DNA of 33,698 nucleotides from assembly GCA_025358765.1 (NCBI GenBank), contig JANYIG010000313.1, positions 1-33,698 on the forward strand. Reading direction: 5' to 3'. Below, piece by piece: positions 4,727 through 16,103 of this stretch. Position 1 is the first letter of the stretch. The number at the start of each line of letters is the position of its first letter. The notes beneath the pieces were generated by a model that had not been told where the DNA came from, made no database searches, and saw only the letters and a list, made by a program, of their open reading frames with translations. Source of the stretch: Candidatus Kapaibacterium sp. GTDB taxonomy: Bacteria > Bacteroidota > Ignavibacteria > Kapaibacteriales > UBA4661. The position numbers and the translations under genes are program-made.

Positions 4727-5938
4727 TTAATGATGTGGACGTTCCTGAGCGCCTTCGATATACGTTTGCAAGTCTTTATCACCACGACCGGAAAGATTTA
4801 CAACAACGATTTCATGCTGTTTTGCGCCTAACTTTTCGAGATATGCCAAGGCATGAGCAGTTTCGAGCGCAGGAATAATGCCTTCGGTGCGGGACAGAAA
4901 TTTTCCAGCAATCATCGCTTCATCGTCCGTGATAGACTCAAATCGCGCCCTGCCACTTGCGAATAGGTGCGCGTGAATCGGTCCAATACCCGGATAATCT
5001 AAGCCTGCCGAAATCGAAAATGGCTCTACAACTTGCCCATCTTGTGTTTGCATCAAATACGTCATACTTCCATGAAGCACACCCGGTTTGCCAAGCGCTG
5101 TCGTTGCAGCAGAAAAACCTGTATTCACGCCCTTTCCACCCGCTTCTACTGCAATAAGCTGCACATCGTTATTATCCAAAAAGTGATAAAATGCTCCGGC
5201 AGCATTCGAGCCACCACCCACACAGGCAAGCACATAATCTGGTGCTTCGCACCCTTCCTTCTCGCGGAGTTGAGCAATAATTTCCTCACTGATAACCGAC
5301 TGAAACCGCGTAACCATGTCAGGATATGGATGAGGACCAACCACCGAACCTATGATATAATGCGTGTCAGTCGGATTCGTAATCCAATCACGCATTGCCT
5401 CGTTTGTGGCATCTTTCAGCGTTTGCGAGCCGCTCATGGCAGGCACAACCTTCGCACCCAGCATTTGCATCCGCTCTACATTCGGCTTCTGGCGTTCAAT
5501 GTCCACCGCACCCATATAAACGACGCATTCCAAACCCATCAACGCACAGGCGGTTGCCGTTGCCACACCATGCTGACCGGCTCCGGTTTCAGCAATAATG
5601 CGGGTTTTGCCGAGGCGTTTGGCGAGCAAAATCTGCCCAATCGTGTTGTTGATTTTGTGTGCGCCTGTGTGATTCAGGTCTTCGCGTTTAAGGTAAATCT
5701 TTGTTTTGTAGAAATCTGAAAGACGTTTCGCGTAATAAAGCGGCGTTGGACGACCAACATAATCTCGCAACAACGAATAAAATTCCTCCTGAAACGATGG
5801 CTCCGCAATAATATCGAGATACACCGAGCGCAAATGCTCCACGTTCGGATATAACATTTCAGGAATGTATGCGCCGCCAAACTGACCGTAGTAGCCGAGG
5901 TCGCTAACATTAAAATTCTGAGATGTGGCGGTAATCAT
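4727..5938 (-). CDS. trpB: Tryptophan synthase beta subunit
   Basis: Condenses indole with serine to give tryptophan, using pyridoxal phosphate. The 403-residue protein carries the PLP-lysine motif [11 protein letters not shown], the TrpB1 signature [14 protein letters not shown], the phosphate-binding [10 protein letters not shown], and [11 protein letters not shown]. These make it the standard TrpB1 type that works in a complex with TrpA, not the stand-alone TrpB2 type. The ATG at 5938 is chosen because the protein then begins like other TrpB chains ([14 protein letters not shown]); an in-frame extension to 6175 runs into the methyltransferase gene. It is the last gene of the trp cluster, 34 nt after the methyltransferase. 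No trpA follows: the next gene is the PAP2 gene on the other strand. Confidence 0.97.
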
Positions 5939-5972
5939 AGTGTTTGGGATTCTGTGGGTTGGAACGTACTCG

Positions 5973-6896
5973 TTATAGTTTTTGTATCCAAATACTGCCG
6001 CCTCGATTTTTGAGGCAAAGAGGCATTGCCTCAGCGAACCACGATTCATACCGACTTTCCATAAACGTATTGAACATAACAATCTCAAAGCGGGTATTGT
6101 ACGACAAAAACGCTCGCAGAATATACGCTTCGTTGTATGCAACACCGTCAGCAAGAAGCTCGCGTGGATACTCAAACGGATAGTGAATGTCGTGGAAATG
6201 AATCATTACGCCGCTTTGCAGCATGGGTAACACATTAAAAAAAATGTAGTTCAAATCACTTCCTACCTTCGCAACGTGAGAACTATCTACAAAGAGGATA
6301 TCGCCCGCCGAAAGTTCCTGAAAGACCGCCGAATCTACCGTTTGAATTTCTTGCTCCAAAATCCTTGTGCTACGGCTATCGGCATCACGGAGAAGGCTTT
6401 TTAGGCGTTCGGGATTGGGTTCGATAAATGTAAACTCCGTTGCACCATCCAAAAAACGGTCATTAGTGTCTAACATCAGCGCTGACGAAAACCCGGATCC
6501 AACCTCTACAACACGCTTCGGACGCAGATGGCGCATCATACAATAGAGCATCAAGCCGTCGGAGTAAGAATAAAATGGATTCTCGAAAAAATAGCGAAAC
6601 CCGCTTGCTGGATGTATCGGAAAAGGCATTTCGTTGTAGAATGACTTGAAATCTTGCAAAAGTTCGTATTGCGATTGTTCATTCAAATTCAGCGCTTCTT
6701 CGTGGATAATGCTGCTCGCCTGCATCACGCGCTCCCACGAGCGTTCAACATTGGCAAAGGCAGGCAACGCTGAATAAAAATGTCCGGGTTGGACATACTC
6801 TTTATGCGCGACATATGCGGGAAAATGTCGTAGAACTCTCATCCAGCGTGTAGCCGCAGGAAAACGTTTTACAAATGATTTGATGTGCTGTATCAT
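5973..6896 (-). CDS. Class I SAM-dependent methyltransferase (Methyltransf_24-like)
   Basis: A 307-residue protein with a Rossmann methyltransferase fold. The SAM-binding motif [14 protein letters not shown] is at about residues 129-142, followed by an acidic end to strand 2 ([11 protein letters not shown]) and the family-typical [18 protein letters not shown] near 203. It resembles methyltransferases found in surface-sugar and natural-product clusters that act on small molecules or sugars; the substrate is not readable. The ATG at 6896 lies 7 nt after the trpF stop; the open frame upstream is inside trpF. Position between trpF and trpB with tiny gaps implies co-transcription with the trp genes, although no step of tryptophan synthesis needs a methyltransferase. 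Confidence 0.8.
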
Positions 6897-6903
6897 TAGT
6901 CGG

Positions 6904-7554
6904 TTAAGGCATAGTGATGTTGTGGGTAAATGCCTGTATCTGCCGTACATCCTTGAGCGCAGGCGCAATCTCGAAGCGGCTATTGATATCAAGCGCGAAA
7001 AGCTGTGGATGATGAAAGTGCCTGATTCTATCAGCAGTATCAAGTCCAATCCCACCGCTCAGGAAAAATGGTATAGTTACGGAATAGCTCTGCAATATAT
7101 TCCAATCAAAGCACTTGCCGCTGCCGCCATACTGAGCAGTTTTTGTGTCAAAAAGCGCAAAATCTATCATATCGGAATAATCTCCAACAGCCGATATATC
7201 TTGCTCTGAGGCGATGCTGAATGCCTTGATGATAAACACATCGGTTTTTGCGCGTAATCGGCGACAATATTCCGGCGTTTCTACGCCATGAAGTTGAATG
7301 CCTGCAAAATCATATTGCTCAATTATCGGCACAATCTCATCAATACTCGCGTTCACAAACACGCCAACAGTCTGAATTGCCGGACGCAACGACCGCACGA
7401 GAGCTTGGTTCAACGCATCACCAACAAAACGTTGGGAGTTAGGGTAAAAGATAAAGCCCATGAAATCGGGCTTGAGCGCAGCAACGGCACGAATATTGGC
7501 TTGGTCGCGCATTCCGCAGACCTTGATGTGATGCCTTGCATCTGGATTCATCAT
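6904..7554 (-). CDS. trpF: Phosphoribosylanthranilate isomerase
   Basis: Converts N-(5'-phosphoribosyl)anthranilate to CdRP, step three of tryptophan synthesis. The roughly 216-residue (beta/alpha)8 barrel shows the catalytic Cys in IKVCGMRDQAN, the catalytic Asp in FALFDTKTAQYGGSGKCFDW, and the phosphate-binding FFLSGGIGLDTAD and LDINSRFEIAPALKD. Start choice is ambiguous: ATG at 7554 is used here, but a TTG at 7569 overlaps the upstream stop (TTGA) and has a GAGG seven bases before it. Either adds only five residues outside the barrel. It sits 11 nt after the acidic-protein gene and 7 nt before the methyltransferase gene. Confidence 0.95.
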   Translation of the reverse strand: MMNPDARHHIKVCGMRDQANIRAVAALKPDFMGFIFYPNSQRFVGDALNQALVRSLRPAIQTVGVFVNASIDEIVPIIEQYDFAGIQLHGVETPEYCRRLRAKTDVFIIKAFSIASEQDISAVGDYSDMIDFALFDTKTAQYGGSGKCFDWNILQSYSVTIPFFLSGGIGLDTADRIRHFHHPQLFALDINSRFEIAPALKDVRQIQAFTHNITMP

Positions 7555-7565
7555 TTTAGAATTTA

Positions 7566-7877
7566 TCAATCATCATCCTCGTCATAAAGCGCTTTGCTAA
7601 CGTCTTCGTCGAACTCGTCGGGTTCTTCAACATCGTTATCTTCATCGTCCGTTGCCTCACTAAATTCATTGCCAAGTTCGTCATCAATAAACTCGGTGTC
7701 TTCCTCTGCCTCAAACATTTCAACTGCTTCATCCACGCCACCAAAAGCAAATTCTGCAAGCTCTTCGATTGTTGCCTGTGCGAGAGCGTGTCGTGCGGAA
7801 TCACGGACAAATTCAACAAATTCGGCATCGTCAAGATAGCCTTGGTACTCGTTTTGTTCTTGGGATGAAATCGCCAT
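7566..7877 (-). CDS. Highly acidic small protein of unknown function in the trp cluster
   Basis: A 103-residue protein not recognised as any family. By hand count it has 40 Asp/Glu against three Lys/Arg, with acidity concentrated in the C-terminal half, which ends YDEDDD. The N-terminal half (about residues 15-60) alternates hydrophobic and acidic residues and could form helices (VEFVRDSARHALAQATIEEL). No signal peptide or membrane segment is seen. The ATG at 7877 has one of the strongest ribosome sites in the window, AAGGAGGT three bases upstream, which argues that it is really translated. It lies 42 nt after trpC and 11 nt before trpF. Possible roles (adaptor, inhibitor, DNA or RNA mimic) are guesses. 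Confidence 0.72.
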   Translation of the reverse strand: MAISSQEQNEYQGYLDDAEFVEFVRDSARHALAQATIEELAEFAFGGVDEAVEMFEAEEDTEFIDDELGNEFSEATDDEDNDVEEPDEFDEDVSKALYDEDDD

Positions 7878-7919: not shown

Positions 7920-8717
7920 TTAGGGTTTGAAAATATTGATGTCTCGAATAAACTCTGCACACGCCAGTTCGGGGCGACTGTGCCGCATAAACGTCTCGCC
8001 AATCAAAAAGCCATTGAAGCCCGCTTTCTTCAACGTGTACACGTCTTTTGCAGATGTAATACCGCTTTCAGACACTTTTGGCACATCCGACGGAATCAGG
8101 CTTGCGAGTGCAAGCGATGTTTCAAGCGACACCGAAAACGTCTTCAAATCACGATTGTTCACCCCCACAACCGTGATATATTCATTCATGCTTGCGGCGA
8201 GTTCCTCAGCGTTATGTACTTCGAGCAAAATCTCAAGCCCTAACGAGACCGCACATTGCGCTAATTGCCGTAATTTTACAGGCTCCAGAGCCGCAGCAAT
8301 CAATAAAATCGCATCCGCGCCGATGGATTTTGCCTCTACGATTTGATATTCGTCCACCACAAAATCTTTTCGCAGAATCGGGCAATAATTAAATTTCCGG
8401 GCGGCTTTCAAGTCGTTGTTCGTGCCGTGAAAAAACTTTTCATCGGTCAGCACCGACAATGCTGAGGCTCCCGCTTGCATGTAGCCAATGGAAGTGCGTT
8501 CAACCGAAGCATACTGATTGATAACACCCTTGGAAGGCGATGCCCGCTTGAACTCTGCAATAATACCCGATTTGTCAGGTCGCAAAAGATATTTTTTCAA
8601 CGAGACAACAGGCGATGCAAAATACGTGCTTTTTTCGAGCAGAGCAACGGGATAAAGTGCTTTGCGTTCGGCAACCTCTGTGTGTTTGTGAGCAATGATT
8701 TCGTCGAGGATGTTCAT
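7920..8717 (-). CDS. trpC: Indole-3-glycerol phosphate synthase
   Basis: Closes the indole ring, converting CdRP to indole-3-glycerol phosphate. The 265-residue barrel has all hallmark segments in order: IIAEFKRASPSKG near residue 55, TDEKFFHGTNNDL, the catalytic Lys in PILRKDFVVDEYQI, GADAILLIAA, LEVHNAEEL, GVNNRDLKTF and VSESGIT. Length is normal for a stand-alone TrpC, so it is not fused to TrpF as in E. coli. The ATG at 8717 is the natural start (MNILDEIIAHKHTEV), although no good ribosome site precedes it. It lies 41 nt after the lipoprotein gene and 42 nt before the acidic-protein gene. Confidence 0.97.
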   Translation of the reverse strand: MNILDEIIAHKHTEVAERKALYPVALLEKSTYFASPVVSLKKYLLRPDKSGIIAEFKRASPSKGVINQYASVERTSIGYMQAGASALSVLTDEKFFHGTNNDLKAARKFNYCPILRKDFVVDEYQIVEAKSIGADAILLIAAALEPVKLRQLAQCAVSLGLEILLEVHNAEELAASMNEYITVVGVNNRDLKTFSVSLETSLALASLIPSDVPKVSESGITSAKDVYTLKKAGFNGFLIGETFMRHSRPELACAEFIRDINIFKP

Positions 8718-9816: not shown

Positions 9817-10809
9817 TCAGTCTGGGTGAATGAATTGGTGAAACGAGCGCAATGCTTTTTTAGATTCAAGAGCTTCGCGGGCAGTTGCAACCGCATCGGG
9901 CAGGGAAATTTGCGGGTGAACGCAGTGAATCGCAATCGCCGCATTCGCACACACAACAGCATTTTGCGCCGCCGTGCCATCGCCTTCAAGAATACTCATA
10001 AAAATCTTTGCATTGTCCTCCGGCGTAATCCCCCCCGCAATTGCTTCCGGCGACAGGCGTTCCAATCCAAGTGCGGACGGCTCACAGAGCAATTCTTTGT
10101 CGTTGCTGATAAGTTTAAACTGCCCCGTGAGTGAGATTTCATCGTATCCGTCGAGCGAACGAAGAATGATATATTGTTTTTCGGTGTTTTGGTAGATATA
10201 GGAATAAAGCCGAGCAAGCTCCATACTGAATACTCCTACAATCTGGTTCAGTGGGAAAGCAGGGTTGACCATCGGTCCGAGCATATTAAAAAACGTCCGC
10301 ATTCCAAGCGCAGCGCGAATGGGACCAACAGCCTTCATCGCCGGATGGAACAAGGGTGCGTGCATAAAACAAACACCGGAGCGCTCCATACTGTGGCGGA
10401 GTTTACTCTCGTCGTTCGTGAACTCATGCCCTAACACTTGTAGCACGTTCGACGAACCACACGCAGAAGAAACGCCGTAATTACCGTGTTTGGCAATCTT
10501 CAGCCCTGCGCCCGCCGCCACGAACATTGCTGTAGTAGAAATATTGAATGTGTTTTTGCCGTCCCCACCCGTACCGCACATATCAATCGTGTTAAATTCC
10601 GCCAAATCCACGCGCCGGCAAAGCTCTAACAACGCCTCGCGGAATCCGTCTAATTCATCCACCGTGATGCTTCGCATCATGTAAACGGTCAGAAACGACG
10701 TAATATGCGCCTCGCTGACCTGCCCGGCGGCAATCGTTTTGAGCGTGTCCTTCGCTTGCTCTTTTGTGAGCGTTTTTGCGGCAAAAAGGTCTTGAAGAAT
10801 ATGTTTCAT
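9817..10809 (-). CDS. trpD: Anthranilate phosphoribosyltransferase
   Basis: Transfers the phosphoribosyl group from PRPP to anthranilate, step two of the pathway. The 330-residue protein has the PRPP-binding MCGTGGDGKNTFNIST, the anthranilate-binding KHGNYGVSSACGSSNVLQVLG, the segment FMHAPLFHPAMKAVGPIRAALGMRTFFNMLGPMVNP, and the metal-site region SLDGYDEISLTG. In the second motif NYGVSS replaces the common NRSVSS. The protein is a stand-alone TrpD, not a TrpGD fusion. Its ATG at 10809 overlaps the stop of the HAD gene as ATGA, so translational coupling is likely. Confidence 0.97.
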   Translation of the reverse strand: MKHILQDLFAAKTLTKEQAKDTLKTIAAGQVSEAHITSFLTVYMMRSITVDELDGFREALLELCRRVDLAEFNTIDMCGTGGDGKNTFNISTTAMFVAAGAGLKIAKHGNYGVSSACGSSNVLQVLGHEFTNDESKLRHSMERSGVCFMHAPLFHPAMKAVGPIRAALGMRTFFNMLGPMVNPAFPLNQIVGVFSMELARLYSYIYQNTEKQYIILRSLDGYDEISLTGQFKLISNDKELLCEPSALGLERLSPEAIAGGITPEDNAKIFMSILEGDGTAAQNAVVCANAAIAIHCVHPQISLPDAVATAREALESKKALRSFHQFIHPD

Positions 10810-11660
10810 TGAGGGTCGAGATTGTCGTTATTTAAATGTAATACGAACCGCTCCATTGATTGCGCCCAGCCATCTTCGAGGTTGGAAGCCGTAGTAAACA
10901 TTGCTTCAGATTTTACCGCCTCAGATGCGTGTCCCATAGCCACACTCACGCCTGCTGTGCGAAACATCTCCACATCGTTCTCGCCATCACCTATAGCGCA
11001 GATTTGCTCACGTGTGATACCCAAATGCTCTGCAAGATGTGTAATCGCTGTGCCTTTGTGAACATTTGGTGCGGTAATGTCGAGAAATCGAGGATTTGCT
11101 GGACTTGAAGCGGAAACTTTTCCTGTAAAATCAGCGTCAATACGGCGTTTCGCTTCTTGAACACGCTCCGGCTCACCCAAGATCGTAATTTTATTGATAG
11201 GTTTCGGTGAACGTAAGCGTTTATCCAAATCTTGCCAGTGTGGTTCAAATCGCAACGAATGGGCTTCTTTTTTTACGAGTTCGTCGTAGCCGGAACTCCA
11301 CCATTCGCATTCATCAAGCAGCATCACGTTGAATCCCTCCGCCGAAATAAGGTCAAACATCGCTTCATACAATGCCCGCACGGTTTTGTGTTCAATCGTT
11401 TTGCTCAGAAGCGTTGCACCATCTGCGGTGGAAATCATTGCTCCGTTCATGGAAATTACGGGGCTGTTAAGTGCAAGCATCCCTGCGGCTTCCAGAAAAT
11501 GCTGCATCCCGCGCAACGGGCGTGAACTCGCCAGCACAACCATCACGCCATATTCTCGCAGGGTTTTCAAGGCATTGTGCGTGGCGGGCGTTATTTCACG
11601 CGCTTTTGTAATAAATGTGCCGTCAACATCAGAAACAACAAGGGAGATTTTTTGATTCAC
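10806..11660 (-). CDS. Cof-type HAD-IIB sugar-phosphate phosphatase
   Basis: A 284-residue haloacid-dehalogenase phosphatase of the Cof/YidA group. Motif I is VVSDVDGTFI (nucleophile Asp about residue 10), motif II VVLASSRPLRG, motif III the Lys in INKITILGEPE, and motif IV AIGDGENDVEMFRTAGVSVAMG. The central 90 residues form the C2-type cap that sets substrate; the family is broad, acting on sugar phosphates and cofactors such as PLP or FMN precursors. The start codon is GTG at 11660; no ATG lies near it. It is 18 nt after the PIN toxin gene and overlaps trpD by 4 nt. A role in tryptophan metabolism is not established. Confidence 0.88.
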   Translation of the reverse strand: MNQKISLVVSDVDGTFITKAREITPATHNALKTLREYGVMVVLASSRPLRGMQHFLEAAGMLALNSPVISMNGAMISTADGATLLSKTIEHKTVRALYEAMFDLISAEGFNVMLLDECEWWSSGYDELVKKEAHSLRFEPHWQDLDKRLRSPKPINKITILGEPERVQEAKRRIDADFTGKVSASSPANPRFLDITAPNVHKGTAITHLAEHLGITREQICAIGDGENDVEMFRTAGVSVAMGHASEAVKSEAMFTTASNLEDGWAQSMERFVLHLNNDNLDPQ

Positions 11661-11678
11661 GATACAAAATGCAAATAA

Positions 11679-12077
11679 TTACCAAATAGTTGAAAGCGCC
11701 GAAGAAGCGCGTAAATTTTCATCAGCCGTCACAAGAGGTGCATTTAATGTAAGTGAGGTTGCAGCAATAATGCGATCTGCGGGGTCTTTATTGATGCTTG
11801 CTGGCAAACGGACGGAGATATCGGCAATCTCCGTATTCAAACGAGCCAGCGAAAAGTTATACGCACTCAAGAGATGATTGAGAAACGAACGAGTATTAAT
11901 TGTCGGGTCGAAGCGTTTTTTGTGGATCAACATCGCAATTTCCCACAACGAGATGTCCGCTAAAAACAGCGTTGCGTACTTATCTGCCTCAGCGAAGGCA
12001 GTGACAGCTTTGGGGCTAAGTTTTTCCGGTGAGAGAACCGACCAAATGGCGATGTGCGTATCCACTATTACCTTCAT
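11679..12077 (-). CDS. vapC: PIN-domain toxin, VapC-like ribonuclease
   Basis: A 132-residue PIN-domain protein, the toxin of a type II toxin-antitoxin pair. The four acidic residues of the metal-dependent RNase site are visible: Asp in IVDTHIAIW, Glu in ISLWEIAML, Asp in DPADRIIAAT, and Asp in VTADENL. VapC toxins usually cut tRNA or rRNA. The ATG at 12077 overlaps the antitoxin stop (ATGA), the standard toxin-antitoxin arrangement; five upstream in-frame codons are therefore left out. The gene is intact and followed 18 nt later by the HAD gene inside the trp cluster. Confidence 0.9.
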   Translation of the reverse strand: MKVIVDTHIAIWSVLSPEKLSPKAVTAFAEADKYATLFLADISLWEIAMLIHKKRFDPTINTRSFLNHLLSAYNFSLARLNTEIADISVRLPASINKDPADRIIAATSLTLNAPLVTADENLRASSALSTIW

Positions 12078-12304
12078 TGTACGGCATCCCACTCTTCACT
12101 AATCGGGGAAATAACATCGCCAATCCACGCCGTTTTGCGGAGGTTTGCTAATTCGCCGCGTGCCTCTGCTTGGGTTTTCGACGGAGGTATCACACGAGCA
12201 ATTTCTTTGCCGCGCGAGGTCAGTCTAAGCGTTTCGCCAGCTTCTACTTTTTCCAAAAACGTAGGCATATTAGAGCGAAATTCGCTGATAGCAACGGTTT
12301 CCAT
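12074..12304 (-). CDS. Phd/YefM-type antitoxin
   Basis: A 76-residue antitoxin. The N-terminal part (ISEFRSNMPTFLEKVEAGETLRLT, then RGKEIARVIPP) is the classic Phd/YefM DNA-binding fold; the C-terminal 30 residues are the likely toxin-binding tail. It neutralises the PIN toxin encoded directly downstream and, by family precedent, represses its own promoter. Two TGTACA-centred repeats lie 16-38 nt upstream of the ATG and are the expected operator. It starts 89 nt after the trpG stop, one of the wider gaps in the cluster, leaving room for its own promoter. Confidence 0.9.
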   Translation of the reverse strand: METVAISEFRSNMPTFLEKVEAGETLRLTSRGKEIARVIPPSKTQAEARGELANLRKTAWIGDVISPISEEWDAVQ

Positions 12305-12319
12305 AGCATTGCATTAAAA

Positions 12320-12342
12320 AACTGTACAAATGAACTGTACAA
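12320..12342. promoter_or_regulatory. Paired TGTACA operator candidate for the Phd/YefM-PIN module
   Basis: Two exact copies of AACTGTACAA (12320-12329 and 12333-12342) sit 13 bp apart, centre to centre, just upstream of the antitoxin start. Each has the palindromic core TGTACA (12323-12328 and 12336-12341). The E. coli yefM-yoeB operator is also built from two neighbouring palindromes with a TGTACA core, so this is probably the autoregulatory site. Binding is inferred, not shown. Confidence 0.7.
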
Positions 12343-12393
12343 CAAAACTCTTAAAAATTCTTCAGAATTACAAGACATTTACAAGAGCAATGA

Positions 12394-12969
12394 TCAACCG
12401 TCAAGCCAGTTTTGAAGCATTTGCACACCGTGTTCTGTCAATACGGATTCGGGATGGAATTGTACGCCACGCACATCATAGTGTTTGTGTCGCAACGCCA
12501 TAATTGCGCCCTCACCATCCACTGCCGTAATGAGTAAATCGTCCGGGAAACCTGCCGTATCTACAATCCACGAGTGATAGCGCCCGACCTTCAATTCATG
12601 CGGAATGCCCCCAAATAGGACATCCTCCTCACAAATACGCACCTTCGTGGCAACGCCGTGATAGACATTCGCCAGATTCGTCAAACGCCCACCAAACGCC
12701 TCGCCAATGGCTTGTTCACCCAAACACACGCCCAATATTGGCTTCTCTGACGCGAAACGTTTGATAAGTGTTGGCATAATGCCTGCCTCTTCGGGAATGC
12801 CCGGACCGGGCGAGAGGATAACACGGTCATATCGCGCCACATCATCGAGCATAATTTTGTCATTGCGAATCACGTCCAGTGTTATAGTCCGCGTAGCTCC
12901 CAATTCACGCACGATATGGGCGATGTTGTACGTGAAGGAATCGTAATTATCAAGAAGGAGGATGTTCAT
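12394..12969 (-). CDS. trpG: Anthranilate synthase glutamine amidotransferase subunit
   Basis: Supplies ammonia from glutamine to TrpE. The 191-residue class I amidotransferase shows LLLDNYDSFTYN, the oxyanion loop LSPGPGIPEEAG, the nucleophile Cys in ILGVCLGEQAIGEAFGG, YHSWIVD, and the His-Glu pair in VQFHPESVLTEHG. In the nucleophile loop Glu stands where His is common (CLGHQ); the catalytic triad itself is complete. It may also serve as PabA for folate, as TrpG does in many bacteria. It lies 46 nt after hicA and 89 nt before the next antitoxin gene, so a toxin-antitoxin pair separates it from its partner trpE. Confidence 0.96.
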   Translation of the reverse strand: MNILLLDNYDSFTYNIAHIVRELGATRTITLDVIRNDKIMLDDVARYDRVILSPGPGIPEEAGIMPTLIKRFASEKPILGVCLGEQAIGEAFGGRLTNLANVYHGVATKVRICEEDVLFGGIPHELKVGRYHSWIVDTAGFPDDLLITAVDGEGAIMALRHKHYDVRGVQFHPESVLTEHGVQMLQNWLDG

Positions 12970-13015
12970 AACGTATTCGTGAATGTTGTATATCAGCCTG
13001 AAATCAGTTCGCCAA

Positions 13016-13234
13016 TTATTTCTGCAAGCCGTCCATATCTTCTTGTGATATGCTCGCTTGTTTCATAATACTTTTGAACGTGCCAACGGGAATTTCGCGC
13101 TTGTTCATGGGGACAATAACGCTGCGTCCGTCTTGAGAACGAAATTTTCCATGTGACCCGCTTTGCGAAATAAATGAAAAGCCAAGCGCCACCAGAGTCC
13201 GCTCAATTTCTCGTGATGAATATCGTTTCGGCAT
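13016..13234 (-). CDS. hicA: HicA-type mRNA interferase toxin
   Basis: A 72-residue protein of the HicA/YcfA family, a double-stranded-RNA-binding-like fold that cuts mRNA. Key features: N-terminal SREIERTLVALGFSF, the active-site His region SQSGSHGKFRS, and VIVPMNKREIPVGTFKSIMKQASIS. The catalytic His is present, so the toxin looks intact. It starts 5 nt after the hicB stop, so the pair is hicB-hicA with antitoxin first. It lies between trpE and trpG on the trp coding strand. Confidence 0.92.
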   Translation of the reverse strand: MPKRYSSREIERTLVALGFSFISQSGSHGKFRSQDGRSVIVPMNKREIPVGTFKSIMKQASISQEDMDGLQK

Positions 13235-13239
13235 ATGCT

Positions 13240-13476
13240 TCAGGAAACAAGCGATTCATGACCAAAGGCAAACGCAGTGCGTTCACGAAAATGAGCGAGC
13301 TTTTCTTCTGTGGGGATGCCGTCATCATCCTGCAAATACAAGCGCACCGCATCTTTGAGGTTTCCAACGGCTTCGTCGCGGGTTTCGCCAAACGATGAAA
13401 TCTCAACATTCAGGCATTGTGCCACTACGTATTCACCTTCGTGCCAGAGCATGTAGTCAATTGCGAGTGTTTCCAT
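13240..13476 (-). CDS. hicB: HicB-type antitoxin
   Basis: A 78-residue protein matching the partial RNase-H-like fold of short HicB antitoxins: YMLWHEGEYVVAQCLNVEISSFGETRDEAVGNLKDAVRLYLQ. No C-terminal helix-turn-helix or ribbon-helix-helix extension is evident, as in the shorter HicB group. It should bind and inhibit the adjacent HicA. It begins 27 nt after the trpE stop; no promoter is obvious in that short gap, so transcription from the trp promoter or from within trpE is likely. Confidence 0.9.
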   Translation of the reverse strand: METLAIDYMLWHEGEYVVAQCLNVEISSFGETRDEAVGNLKDAVRLYLQDDDGIPTEEKLAHFRERTAFAFGHESLVS

Positions 13477-13503
13477 GATACTGCTTGAAAAAATGTACGA
13501 AAA

Positions 13504-14970
13504 TCACAGTGTTTGCGCCAGTTGCAGCGCTTTTTTGAGCGCCGCGAGCTTGTGTCCAACTTCCTGAAGCTCGCTGCGGAGGTCAGATGCCGCCACCAAT
13601 CCCAAACCCGCCTGATAGGTCAGTACATTGTTTTTGCTCATAAACGAACGAATCATAATTGCTTGATTCACATCACCACCAAAGTCAATAAAGCCCACAC
13701 ACCCTGCATAATAGCTGCGATTGCCGCGCTCGTAGCGGTCTATCAATTCCATCGCTCTGTACTTCGGAGCGCCGGAGAGCGTTCCTGCGGGAAACGTATC
13801 CGCAACGATAGCAAGCGACGTTTCGAGCGAGCTTCCGGGCAAATTTCCCGCGATATTGAGCTTGCCCGTCACCTTCGAGACGAGGTGAATCACGTGCGAA
13901 TAAAACTGAATCTCCCGATACACTTCCACGTTCACTCCTGTGCAGTGGCGACTGAGGTCGTTCCGTGCAAGGTCAACAAGCATAACGTGTTCAGCATTTT
14001 CTTTCGGGTCGTGCTTGAGTTCTTCGGCGCGGCGGCGGTCTGTTTCGTCGTCACCCGTGCGGCGGAACGTGCCGGCAATCGGGTGAATCTCCGCTTTGTC
14101 GCCTTTGATAACGATTTGCGCCTCTGGCGACGAGCCAAAGAGCCGCACCGAGCCGTAATCGAAGTAAAACAAATATGGCGACGGATTGACCGAACGCAGC
14201 GCTCTGTACAGGTTAAAATCGTCACCTTTAAAGCCTTGCTGGAAACGGCGCGACGGCACAATTTGGAACACATCGCCCCGAAAAATATGCTCCTTCACCT
14301 TTGCCAGCGTTGCAAGAAATTCGTCGTCCGTAAAATTTGACGTTTCCTCGCCCACCGTTTGAAAAGTGTATTGTGCGAAGGTTTTTTGATTGATGAGTGA
14401 TTCCACATATTCAATAGAATGCCCCGAACTATCGTCATCACTTGCCTCTATGGGTTTGTGTTCAATAATATGCAGTTCGTTCGTGAAATGATTCAGCGCA
14501 ATGATGAATTGATACAAATGATACTGCATTGCTGGAATGCTTCGCGAATCCTCGCGTTCAGCCGTGAGCGTGATGTCCTCGAAGTACTGCACAGCATCAT
14601 AGCTGCAATACCCAAACACGCCGCTGTGCAAAAACGGAATATTCAGGCGCTCGGTGGCAAAACTTTCCATAAAGCACTTCAATGCTTGTAATACGTCCGT
14701 GCGGCTCTGAATGGGCGTTTCAGAGCGTTCGCCGTTAGGGAAATATTGTCCGATACCAGCATTTTCCACCACAAAACCAGCAATCGGCTTACAGCAGATG
14801 TACGAAAAACTATCCTCGTTGCCATGATAATCAGAACTTTCGAGCAAAATGCTATTCGGGAAAATGTCGCGTAGTTGCAGATACATACTCACCGGCGTGA
14901 ACGTATCGGCAAGGAGTTTCTTGGAACGCACGTGTAGTGCGATGTTTGGTGATGGTTGAGGTTTCGACAT
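13504..14970 (-). CDS. trpE: Anthranilate synthase component I
   Basis: Converts chorismate and ammonia to anthranilate, the committed step. The 488-residue protein has the chorismate-binding fold: QIVPSRRFQQGF, LFGSSPEAQI, IHPIAGTFRRTGDDETD, AEHVMLVDLARNDLSRHC, SHVIHLVSKVTG, and DTFPAGTLSGAPKYRAMELID. An N-terminal LLESSDYHGNEDSFSYIC is the region where tryptophan feedback binding occurs in TrpE (the ESS motif is present), so allosteric inhibition is expected. It is a single-domain TrpE, not fused to TrpG. ATG at 14970 lies 35 nt after the T-tract of the attenuator; expression should be under that control. Confidence 0.97.
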   Translation of the reverse strand: MSKPQPSPNIALHVRSKKLLADTFTPVSMYLQLRDIFPNSILLESSDYHGNEDSFSYICCKPIAGFVVENAGIGQYFPNGERSETPIQSRTDVLQALKCFMESFATERLNIPFLHSGVFGYCSYDAVQYFEDITLTAEREDSRSIPAMQYHLYQFIIALNHFTNELHIIEHKPIEASDDDSSGHSIEYVESLINQKTFAQYTFQTVGEETSNFTDDEFLATLAKVKEHIFRGDVFQIVPSRRFQQGFKGDDFNLYRALRSVNPSPYLFYFDYGSVRLFGSSPEAQIVIKGDKAEIHPIAGTFRRTGDDETDRRRAEELKHDPKENAEHVMLVDLARNDLSRHCTGVNVEVYREIQFYSHVIHLVSKVTGKLNIAGNLPGSSLETSLAIVADTFPAGTLSGAPKYRAMELIDRYERGNRSYYAGCVGFIDFGGDVNQAIMIRSFMSKNNVLTYQAGLGLVAASDLRSELQEVGHKLAALKKALQLAQTL

Positions 14971-15005: not shown

Positions 15006-15037
15006 AAAAAAAAACCTACTGGAAGGCAGTAGGTTTT
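15006..15037 (-). terminator. Intrinsic terminator of the trp attenuator
   Basis: In the trpE direction an 11-bp perfect stem (AAAACCTACTG at 15037-15027 with CAGTAGGTTTT at 15021-15011), a 5-nt CCTTC loop, and an uninterrupted run of nine T (15014-15006). It lies between the leader peptide and trpE, so it can end transcription before the first structural gene. Confidence 0.93.
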
Positions 15038-15085
15038 ATTCGTCATTATTTGCTTGTGTTGGCACACGCACAAAGGCAACCTACT
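15028..15085 (-). promoter_or_regulatory. trp antiterminator pairing (regions 2 and 3)
   Basis: AGTAGGTT at 15085-15078 is perfectly complementary over 8 nt to AACCTACT at 15035-15028, which is the left arm of the terminator. Pairing would free the T-tract side and allow read-through. The first copy contains the leader-peptide TAG stop codon (15083-15081), so a ribosome finishing the leader would cover it and favour the terminator. A competing earlier pairing TCCTT (15105-15101) with AAGGA (15089-15085) gives the region 1-2 hairpin. Confidence 0.85.
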
Positions 15086-15143
15086 CCTTGCGAAGTTGTG
15101 AAGGAAGCCACCAGAGCCAGCTCTGTACGTTGCGTGTGTTCAT
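15081..15143 (-). CDS. trpL: trp operon leader peptide
   Basis: A 20-residue open frame upstream of the terminator. It contains three Trp codons at positions 9, 11 and 12 (SWLWWLP), by far denser than chance, and ends in TAG inside the antiterminator arm. When charged tRNA-Trp is scarce, a ribosome would stall at bases 15119-15108, cover region 1 (15105-15101) and leave the antiterminator free to form; when it is plentiful, the ribosome reaches the stop, blocks region 2 and the terminator forms. No clear Shine-Dalgarno precedes the ATG (upstream CTACGACGACA), which is common for this phylum. It is one of the clearest features in the window despite its size. Confidence 0.92.
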   Translation of the reverse strand: MNTRNVQSWLWWLPSQLRKE

Positions 15144-15200: not shown

Positions 15201-15222
15201 AAGCAAATGTTTGTCGTAATTA
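15194..15222 (+). promoter_or_regulatory. Candidate proC promoter
   Basis: TTGTCA (15194-15199), a 17-nt spacer and TAATTA (15217-15222) give a good sigma70-like promoter about 60 nt before the proC ATG. Its -35 element overlaps the opposite-strand -35 of the trp promoter. Confidence 0.5.
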
Positions 15223-15281
15223 CAAAAAAACGGGCGTTTCTAAAACGTTCCTCTTTATCCTTCTCACACTCACTCTGCATT

Positions 15282-16103
15282 ATGGCATTTTCCCATCGTA
15301 TCGCAATATTGGGCGGCGGCAATCTCGGCATTGCCATTGCTCAAGGCTTATTGGTTTCCAAATTATTGCCCGCAAAAGACATCACGGTAACGCGCCGCCG
15401 CGTTGATTTGCTCAAAGAACTCGGCAAAAAAGGCATCAACGTCACAAGTGACAATGCTGCCGCGCTCAAACAGGCCGATGTGATTATCCTCGCCGTGCAA
15501 CCGCAACAACTCAATGAAGTCATCAGCGAAATCAAAAAGGATATACACCCGAAAAAACACATTGTGATTTCGGTCGCCTCTGGCGCAACTATTGACCAAA
15601 TCTCCACGTCACTCGGCAAACCTGTTCCCGTCGTTCGCGCCATGCCAAACACAGCGATTGCCATCCGCGAATCCATGACGTGCCTTGCCGCAAACAAAGG
15701 ACATGAAGAGCCTCTGAAGCTCGCCGAGCAGATTTTTAACACCGTCGGCGAAACGGTCGTGATTCATGAAGAATTGATGACTTCTGCAACGGCGCTCTGT
15801 GCCTGCGGTGTGGCGTTTTTCTTGCGGGCGGTACGAGCAGCATCCCAAGGCGGTATCGAGATTGGCTTCCACGCGGACGAGGCAATTAAAATGGCGGCGC
15901 AAACGGCTCGTGGAGCAGCCTCATTGCTACTTTCGGGAATGCATCCCGAAGATGCAATTGATAAAGTAACCACGCCACGCGGCTGCACGATTGCCGGATT
16001 GAATGAAATGGAGCATCAAGGTTTTAGTTCAGCGATGATTCGCGGCATCACAACCGCCGCCGACAAAGCAGACCAACTCTACGTCACAAAACCTGCCAAA
16101 TAA
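15282..16103 (+). CDS. proC: Pyrroline-5-carboxylate reductase
   Basis: Catalyses the last step of proline synthesis, NAD(P)H reduction of pyrroline-5-carboxylate. The 273-residue protein has the Rossmann start RIAILGGGNLGIAIAQGLL, VILAVQPQQ, VISVASGATI, the VVRAMPNTAIAI motif, and the C-terminal dimer domain with SQGGIEIGFHADEAIKMAAQT cut by a typical TPRGCTIAGLNEME signature. ATG at 15282 is chosen since the nucleotide-binding strand begins right after; the frame extends to 15207 but that part overlaps the promoter region. It is divergent from trpE and followed 12 nt later by the DUF5103 gene, probably one transcript. Confidence 0.96.
   Translation: MAFSHRIAILGGGNLGIAIAQGLLVSKLLPAKDITVTRRRVDLLKELGKKGINVTSDNAAALKQADVIILAVQPQQLNEVISEIKKDIHPKKHIVISVASGATIDQISTSLGKPVPVVRAMPNTAIAIRESMTCLAANKGHEEPLKLAEQIFNTVGETVVIHEELMTSATALCACGVAFFLRAVRAASQGGIEIGFHADEAIKMAAQTARGAASLLLSGMHPEDAIDKVTTPRGCTIAGLNEMEHQGFSSAMIRGITTAADKADQLYVTKPAK

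Follow-up and report, generated by a model that had tools for sequence, protein, structure and literature searches.

Amino-acid leader-peptide attenuators, the element class considered here, were reportedly predicted by comparative genomics by Vitreschak et al. in 2004 and Lopatovskaya et al. in 2010, and the abstract of the former is said to name Bacteroidetes/Chlorobi already. Leader-peptide systems were known to Naville and Gautheret (2010; PMC2965389), who cited Vitreschak et al. 2004, only in Proteobacteria and Actinobacteria. Weinberg et al. (2010; PMC2864571) listed the Bacteroid-trp motif (RF01692) among the probable cis-regulatory RNAs of Bacteroidetes. Matches to RF01692 coincided with the trpE leaders of four genomes of one family (f33), which carry a MKTILNNTWWWNNLRQSS-type leader and a terminator. 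The expectation of the initial annotation that an example from a Bacteroidota/Chlorobiota-like genome would extend the range of this mechanism has therefore been overtaken, since such leaders in one family already fall under RF01692 (2010). Two f25 genomes also have Bacteroid-trp matches just below the cut-off at sites other than trpE (L164, G390:C6:1520498-1520618; L165, G380:C22:235618-235735).

The window (the whole stretch of 33,698 nucleotides that was analysed) belongs to a draft genome of 4.86 Mb in 362 contigs, 98% complete. A ribosome-mediated attenuator like that of the E. coli trp operon very probably controls trpE and the genes co-transcribed with it in this genome, and it probably came with trpE from a Cytophagales-like donor. 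The elements preceding trpE are as follows.

15081-15143, minus strand: trp leader peptide ORF, read as MNTRNVQSWLWWLPSQLRKE followed by a stop; 20 codons, ATG at 15143-15141 and TAG at 15083-15081 (sequence and translation)
15108-15119, minus strand: regulatory Trp codons 9, 11 and 12 (TGG CTC TGG TGG; sequence)
15080-15104, minus strand: predicted 1:2-type hairpin in the leader, pairing 15104-15102 with 15082-15080 and 15096-15092 with 15087-15083
15078-15085, minus strand: segment 2, the 5' arm of the predicted antiterminator, AGTAGGTT, including the leader stop codon TAG (pairing search and folding)
15028-15035, minus strand: segment 3, AACCTACT, common to antiterminator and terminator (pairing search and folding)
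15011-15037, minus strand: intrinsic terminator stem-loop, 11/11 bp with a 5-nt loop (hairpin search)
15006-15014, minus strand: T9 tract of the terminator, into which the last bases of the 3' arm extend (sequence)
15063-15138, minus strand: span of a long-range pairing of 15138-15131 with 15070-15063 (pairing search and minimum-energy fold)

The intrinsic terminator sits between the leader ORF and the first structural gene, trpE (start at 14970). The sequence and its translation bear out the 20-codon frame with Trp at positions 9, 11 and 12 that was noted in the initial annotation, together with the 11-bp terminator stem with nine T (15037-15011) and the 8-bp alternative pairing that contains the leader stop. 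In the latter, 15085-15078 pairs with 15035-15028 at 8/8 positions, AGTAGGTT being the exact complement of AACCTACT. The thermodynamic fold that had been proposed as a check gave a leader RNA structure stronger than those of dinucleotide shuffles (z = -2.65). The long-range pairing is predicted to enclose the untranslated leader, where it may play a part.

E. coli trpL and the window leader share a short leader with clustered Trp codons, a stop-proximal antiterminator arm and a U-tract terminator before trpE. Their sequences are unrelated; the stop codon of the window leader lies inside the antiterminator arm, whereas the arm of trpL begins downstream of the stop, and three Trp codons are arranged as W-x-W-W in the window as against two in tandem in trpL. 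Bacteroid-trp has the same position before trpE and the same combination of Trp leader and terminator, but its leader peptide and stem sequences differ from those of the window. No match to RF01692 (threshold 49 bits) was obtained in the window, in G000 or in the eight genomes of the window's family (f1) that were tried. The window element works like Bacteroid-trp, yet by covariance-model score it is not a member of RF01692. A search of NCBIfam with the leader peptides gave no match.

Switching was modelled by folding only the RNA left exposed by each ribosome position, with protection extending to 12 nt past the first base of the A-site codon and with the RNA ending at segment 3, i.e. before the second arm of the terminator has been made. 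When the A site held Trp9, Trp11 or Trp12, most pairs of the 2:3 antiterminator were predicted at P of about 0.95-1.0. With no ribosome the predicted P was about 0.02, segment 2 being hidden by the leader's own hairpin, and when the stop codon occupied the A site the ribosome was predicted to cover segment 2. The three-state folding of E. coli trpL was alike in the identical test, segment 3 being paired upstream at 0.62, 0 and 0 (stalled, stop and no ribosome, respectively). The predicted antiterminator is exclusive with the terminator and is exposed only upon stalling at the regulatory codons, and a hairpin predicted in the untranslated RNA conceals the antiterminator arm. Once the whole leader was transcribed, the terminator was the thermodynamic optimum in every ribosome state, stalled included, so antitermination would have to be kinetic; kinetic trapping is usually assumed.

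The stalling, termination and response to tryptophan that we infer would proceed as follows. When charged tRNA-Trp is low, the ribosome translating the leader would stall at Trp codons 9-12 and disrupt the within-leader hairpin, and AGUAGGUU around the stop codon would be freed to pair with AACCUACU; the terminator would thus be blocked and transcription would proceed into trpE. When tryptophan is ample, the ribosome at the stop codon would cover AGUAGGUU, and the 11-bp terminator would form. In the absence of translation, AGUAGGUU would be hidden by the leader's own hairpin and transcription would terminate. The E. coli-type logic put forward in the initial annotation is supported by the state-dependent predicted folds, the trpL control and the conserved architecture of the leader.

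Conservation was examined using a detector that recognised a short ORF with clustered Trp codons and a U-tailed hairpin within 140 nt. A Trp-rich frame and a U-tailed terminator were found before trpE in 115/133 upstream regions of the phylum versus 2/665 shuffles; some of the 115 matches are doubtful (e.g. G340, G373), and G007 was counted twice in the set. TGG clusters were present in every retained leader. The leader and terminator architecture was kept in six members of f1, and the Trp codons that had been singled out for comparison in related trpE leaders were retained in G003, G004, G005, G007 and G009, each leader having at least three close Trp codons and then a U-tailed hairpin. In G001 the contig stops within trpE, and no close TrpE was seen in G008 (86% complete). 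G002 and G006 (L007 and L006), sisters in the tree, have a TrpE with 65% identity but no leader in front of it; in these two genomes the leader was lost later. Absence of the element from relatives had been named as evidence against it; the outcome is mixed, the leader being absent from this pair and kept in the other assessable genomes of the family.

The folding survey covered 114 distinct leaders under a single untuned set of settings (protected length, last Trp codon of the cluster as A site, lenient terminator rule). On average, segment 3 paired upstream with a probability of 0.61 when stalled, 0.15 at the stop and 0.34 with no ribosome; in stalled fragments whose interior (Trp codons to terminator) had been shuffled it was still 0.42. 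These averages indicate that the switch is a general property, with scatter. The predicted stalled folds of G004 and G005 were not a simple 2:3 helix, segment 3 being upstream-paired at 0.63 and 0.56, respectively. A stop codon inside the antiterminator arm was considered as a normal hallmark of such leaders and rejected, as it occurred in 18/115 leaders only.

Paired changes were seen between the window (segment 3 AAAACC, segment 2 GGTT, segment 4 GGTTTT) and G003, G005 and G007 (segment 3 AAAGCC, segment 2 GCGCTTT, segment 4 GGCTTT). Segment 3 changes from A to G and segment 4 from U to C, while segment 2 shifts to oppose the change with a C, so that both helices are preserved. These three-way changes, identified by eye in few sequences, lend support to both alternative helices. 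A MAFFT alignment of the family leaders misplaced segment 2 around the stop codon.

Identity of f1 TrpE to the Bacteroidia sequences was 48-59%, with 55-59% for the nearest Cytophagales, whereas TrpE from other families of the same class as f1 shared only 34-39%. In the gene tree, which covers trpE only, f1 was placed beside four Cytophagales (97/93), nested in the Bacteroidia-type clade; an earlier trpE tree with distant outgroups gave the same placement, and a tree forcing f1 with its own class was rejected (p-AU 3.9e-104). The four Cytophagales neighbours also have a leader and terminator (L032, L037, L049, L050). TrpC was found in 8/10 f1 genomes. No intact trpC was found in 51 genomes of the nine other families of the order (f2-f10), where one fragment of 93 positions was detected (G058). 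The confinement of trpC to f1 within the order suggests widespread tryptophan auxotrophy elsewhere in the order. In G002 and G006, trpE and trpC are on separate contigs. The simplest explanation is joint acquisition of the attenuator and trpE, probably along with further trp genes, from a Cytophagales-like donor; the leaders of f1 and of the Cytophagales could not be convincingly aligned, and the proposed co-transfer therefore rests on parsimony.

Two readings would deny the locus a leader-peptide switch. The hairpin could be a mere terminator that shields trpE against transcription from upstream, with the Trp-rich frame arising by chance. A terminator does exist, but Trp-rich frames precede it in the six family members and far more often in the phylum than in shuffled sequence, and the predicted pairing switches with ribosome position. 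In addition, the upstream gene (15207-16103) is on the opposite strand and points away from the leader, which leaves little same-strand upstream transcription to insulate against; insulation is a very improbable explanation. T-box, TRAP-type and riboswitch systems control trp genes in Firmicutes, and a T-box, a TRAP-type protein site or a riboswitch might sense tryptophan here. However, no Rfam family reached its gathering score anywhere in the window, a permissive scan of the leader (E up to 10) returned no T-box, no riboswitch and no Trp_leader (RF00513), and the cluster of Trp codons would have no role in such systems; a sensor of this kind is scarcely credible. The best leader matches in the permissive scan, Thr_leader (23 bits) and Phe_leader (19 bits), were rejected as far below their cut-offs of 55.

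How far the attenuator reaches is a separate question. The cluster downstream comprises the following genes.

13504-14970, minus strand: trpE, first gene after the attenuator (Pfam PF04715 Anth_synt_I_N and PF00425 Chorismate_bind)
13016-13476, minus strand: HicA toxin gene (PF07927, 1e-15) and HicB-like partner (just under the DUF7387 cut-off), between trpE and trpG
12394-12969, minus strand: trpG (PF00117; TrpG of relatives 60-71% identical)
11679-12304, minus strand: Phd-like small ORF (by eye) and PIN-domain gene (PF01850), between trpG and the HAD gene/trpD
9817-10809, minus strand: trpD (PF00591/PF02885)
7920-8717, minus strand: trpC (PF00218)
6904-7569, minus strand: trpF (PF00697)
4727-6175, minus strand: trpB, its true start probably within the ORF (PF00291; TrpB identity from context)

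The two Pfam domains of the first gene establish it as the trpE that the initial annotation had placed downstream. The same-strand order is trpE, HicB-like, HicA, trpG, Phd-like, PIN, HAD hydrolase and trpD, and then an unrelated gene, trpC, trpF, a methyltransferase and trpB; trpA is located on another contig. The switch might be real and reach only trpE or the few next genes, the downstream trp genes having promoters of their own, a reading compatible with attenuation. The non-trp genes that break up the cluster (hicBA, Phd/PIN-like, HAD and others) and the separate trpA speak for it. Against it, trpE to trpB are all co-directional, and a scan of the coding strand from 11500 to 13600, for sigma-70 type promoters only, found no promoter-like and no terminator-like site. 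Such a limited reach is a serious possibility, though not the one we would favour. No convincing His leader before hisG or Trp leader before trpA was found in the stretch read in the same genome, which gives no sign of attenuation as a general device there.

Counterparts of the inserted genes occupy the same places in G005, hicBA between trpE and trpG at 60-72% identity and the Phd-like/PIN pair at 44-63%; G003, G007 and G009 have neither insertion there, and trpG directly follows trpE. It is conceivable, but unlikely, that the attenuator also sets the expression of these two toxin-antitoxin-like modules (HicBA and Phd/PIN-like) in the window genome and G005. If it did, toxin-antitoxin levels would be tied to tryptophan starvation by a horizontally acquired attenuator.

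What is new at this locus is a Kapabacterial branch of an attenuator type already known in Bacteroidota; the mechanism itself is not new. The window provides a concrete predicted Trp attenuator for a lineage of Kapabacteria undetected by Rfam. Leader-peptide attenuation before trpE appears to be near the rule in the sampled phylum and not a Proteobacterial speciality. At this locus, moreover, a biosynthetic gene seems to have travelled with its RNA switch from one lineage to a distant one, and two sister genomes later lost the switch.
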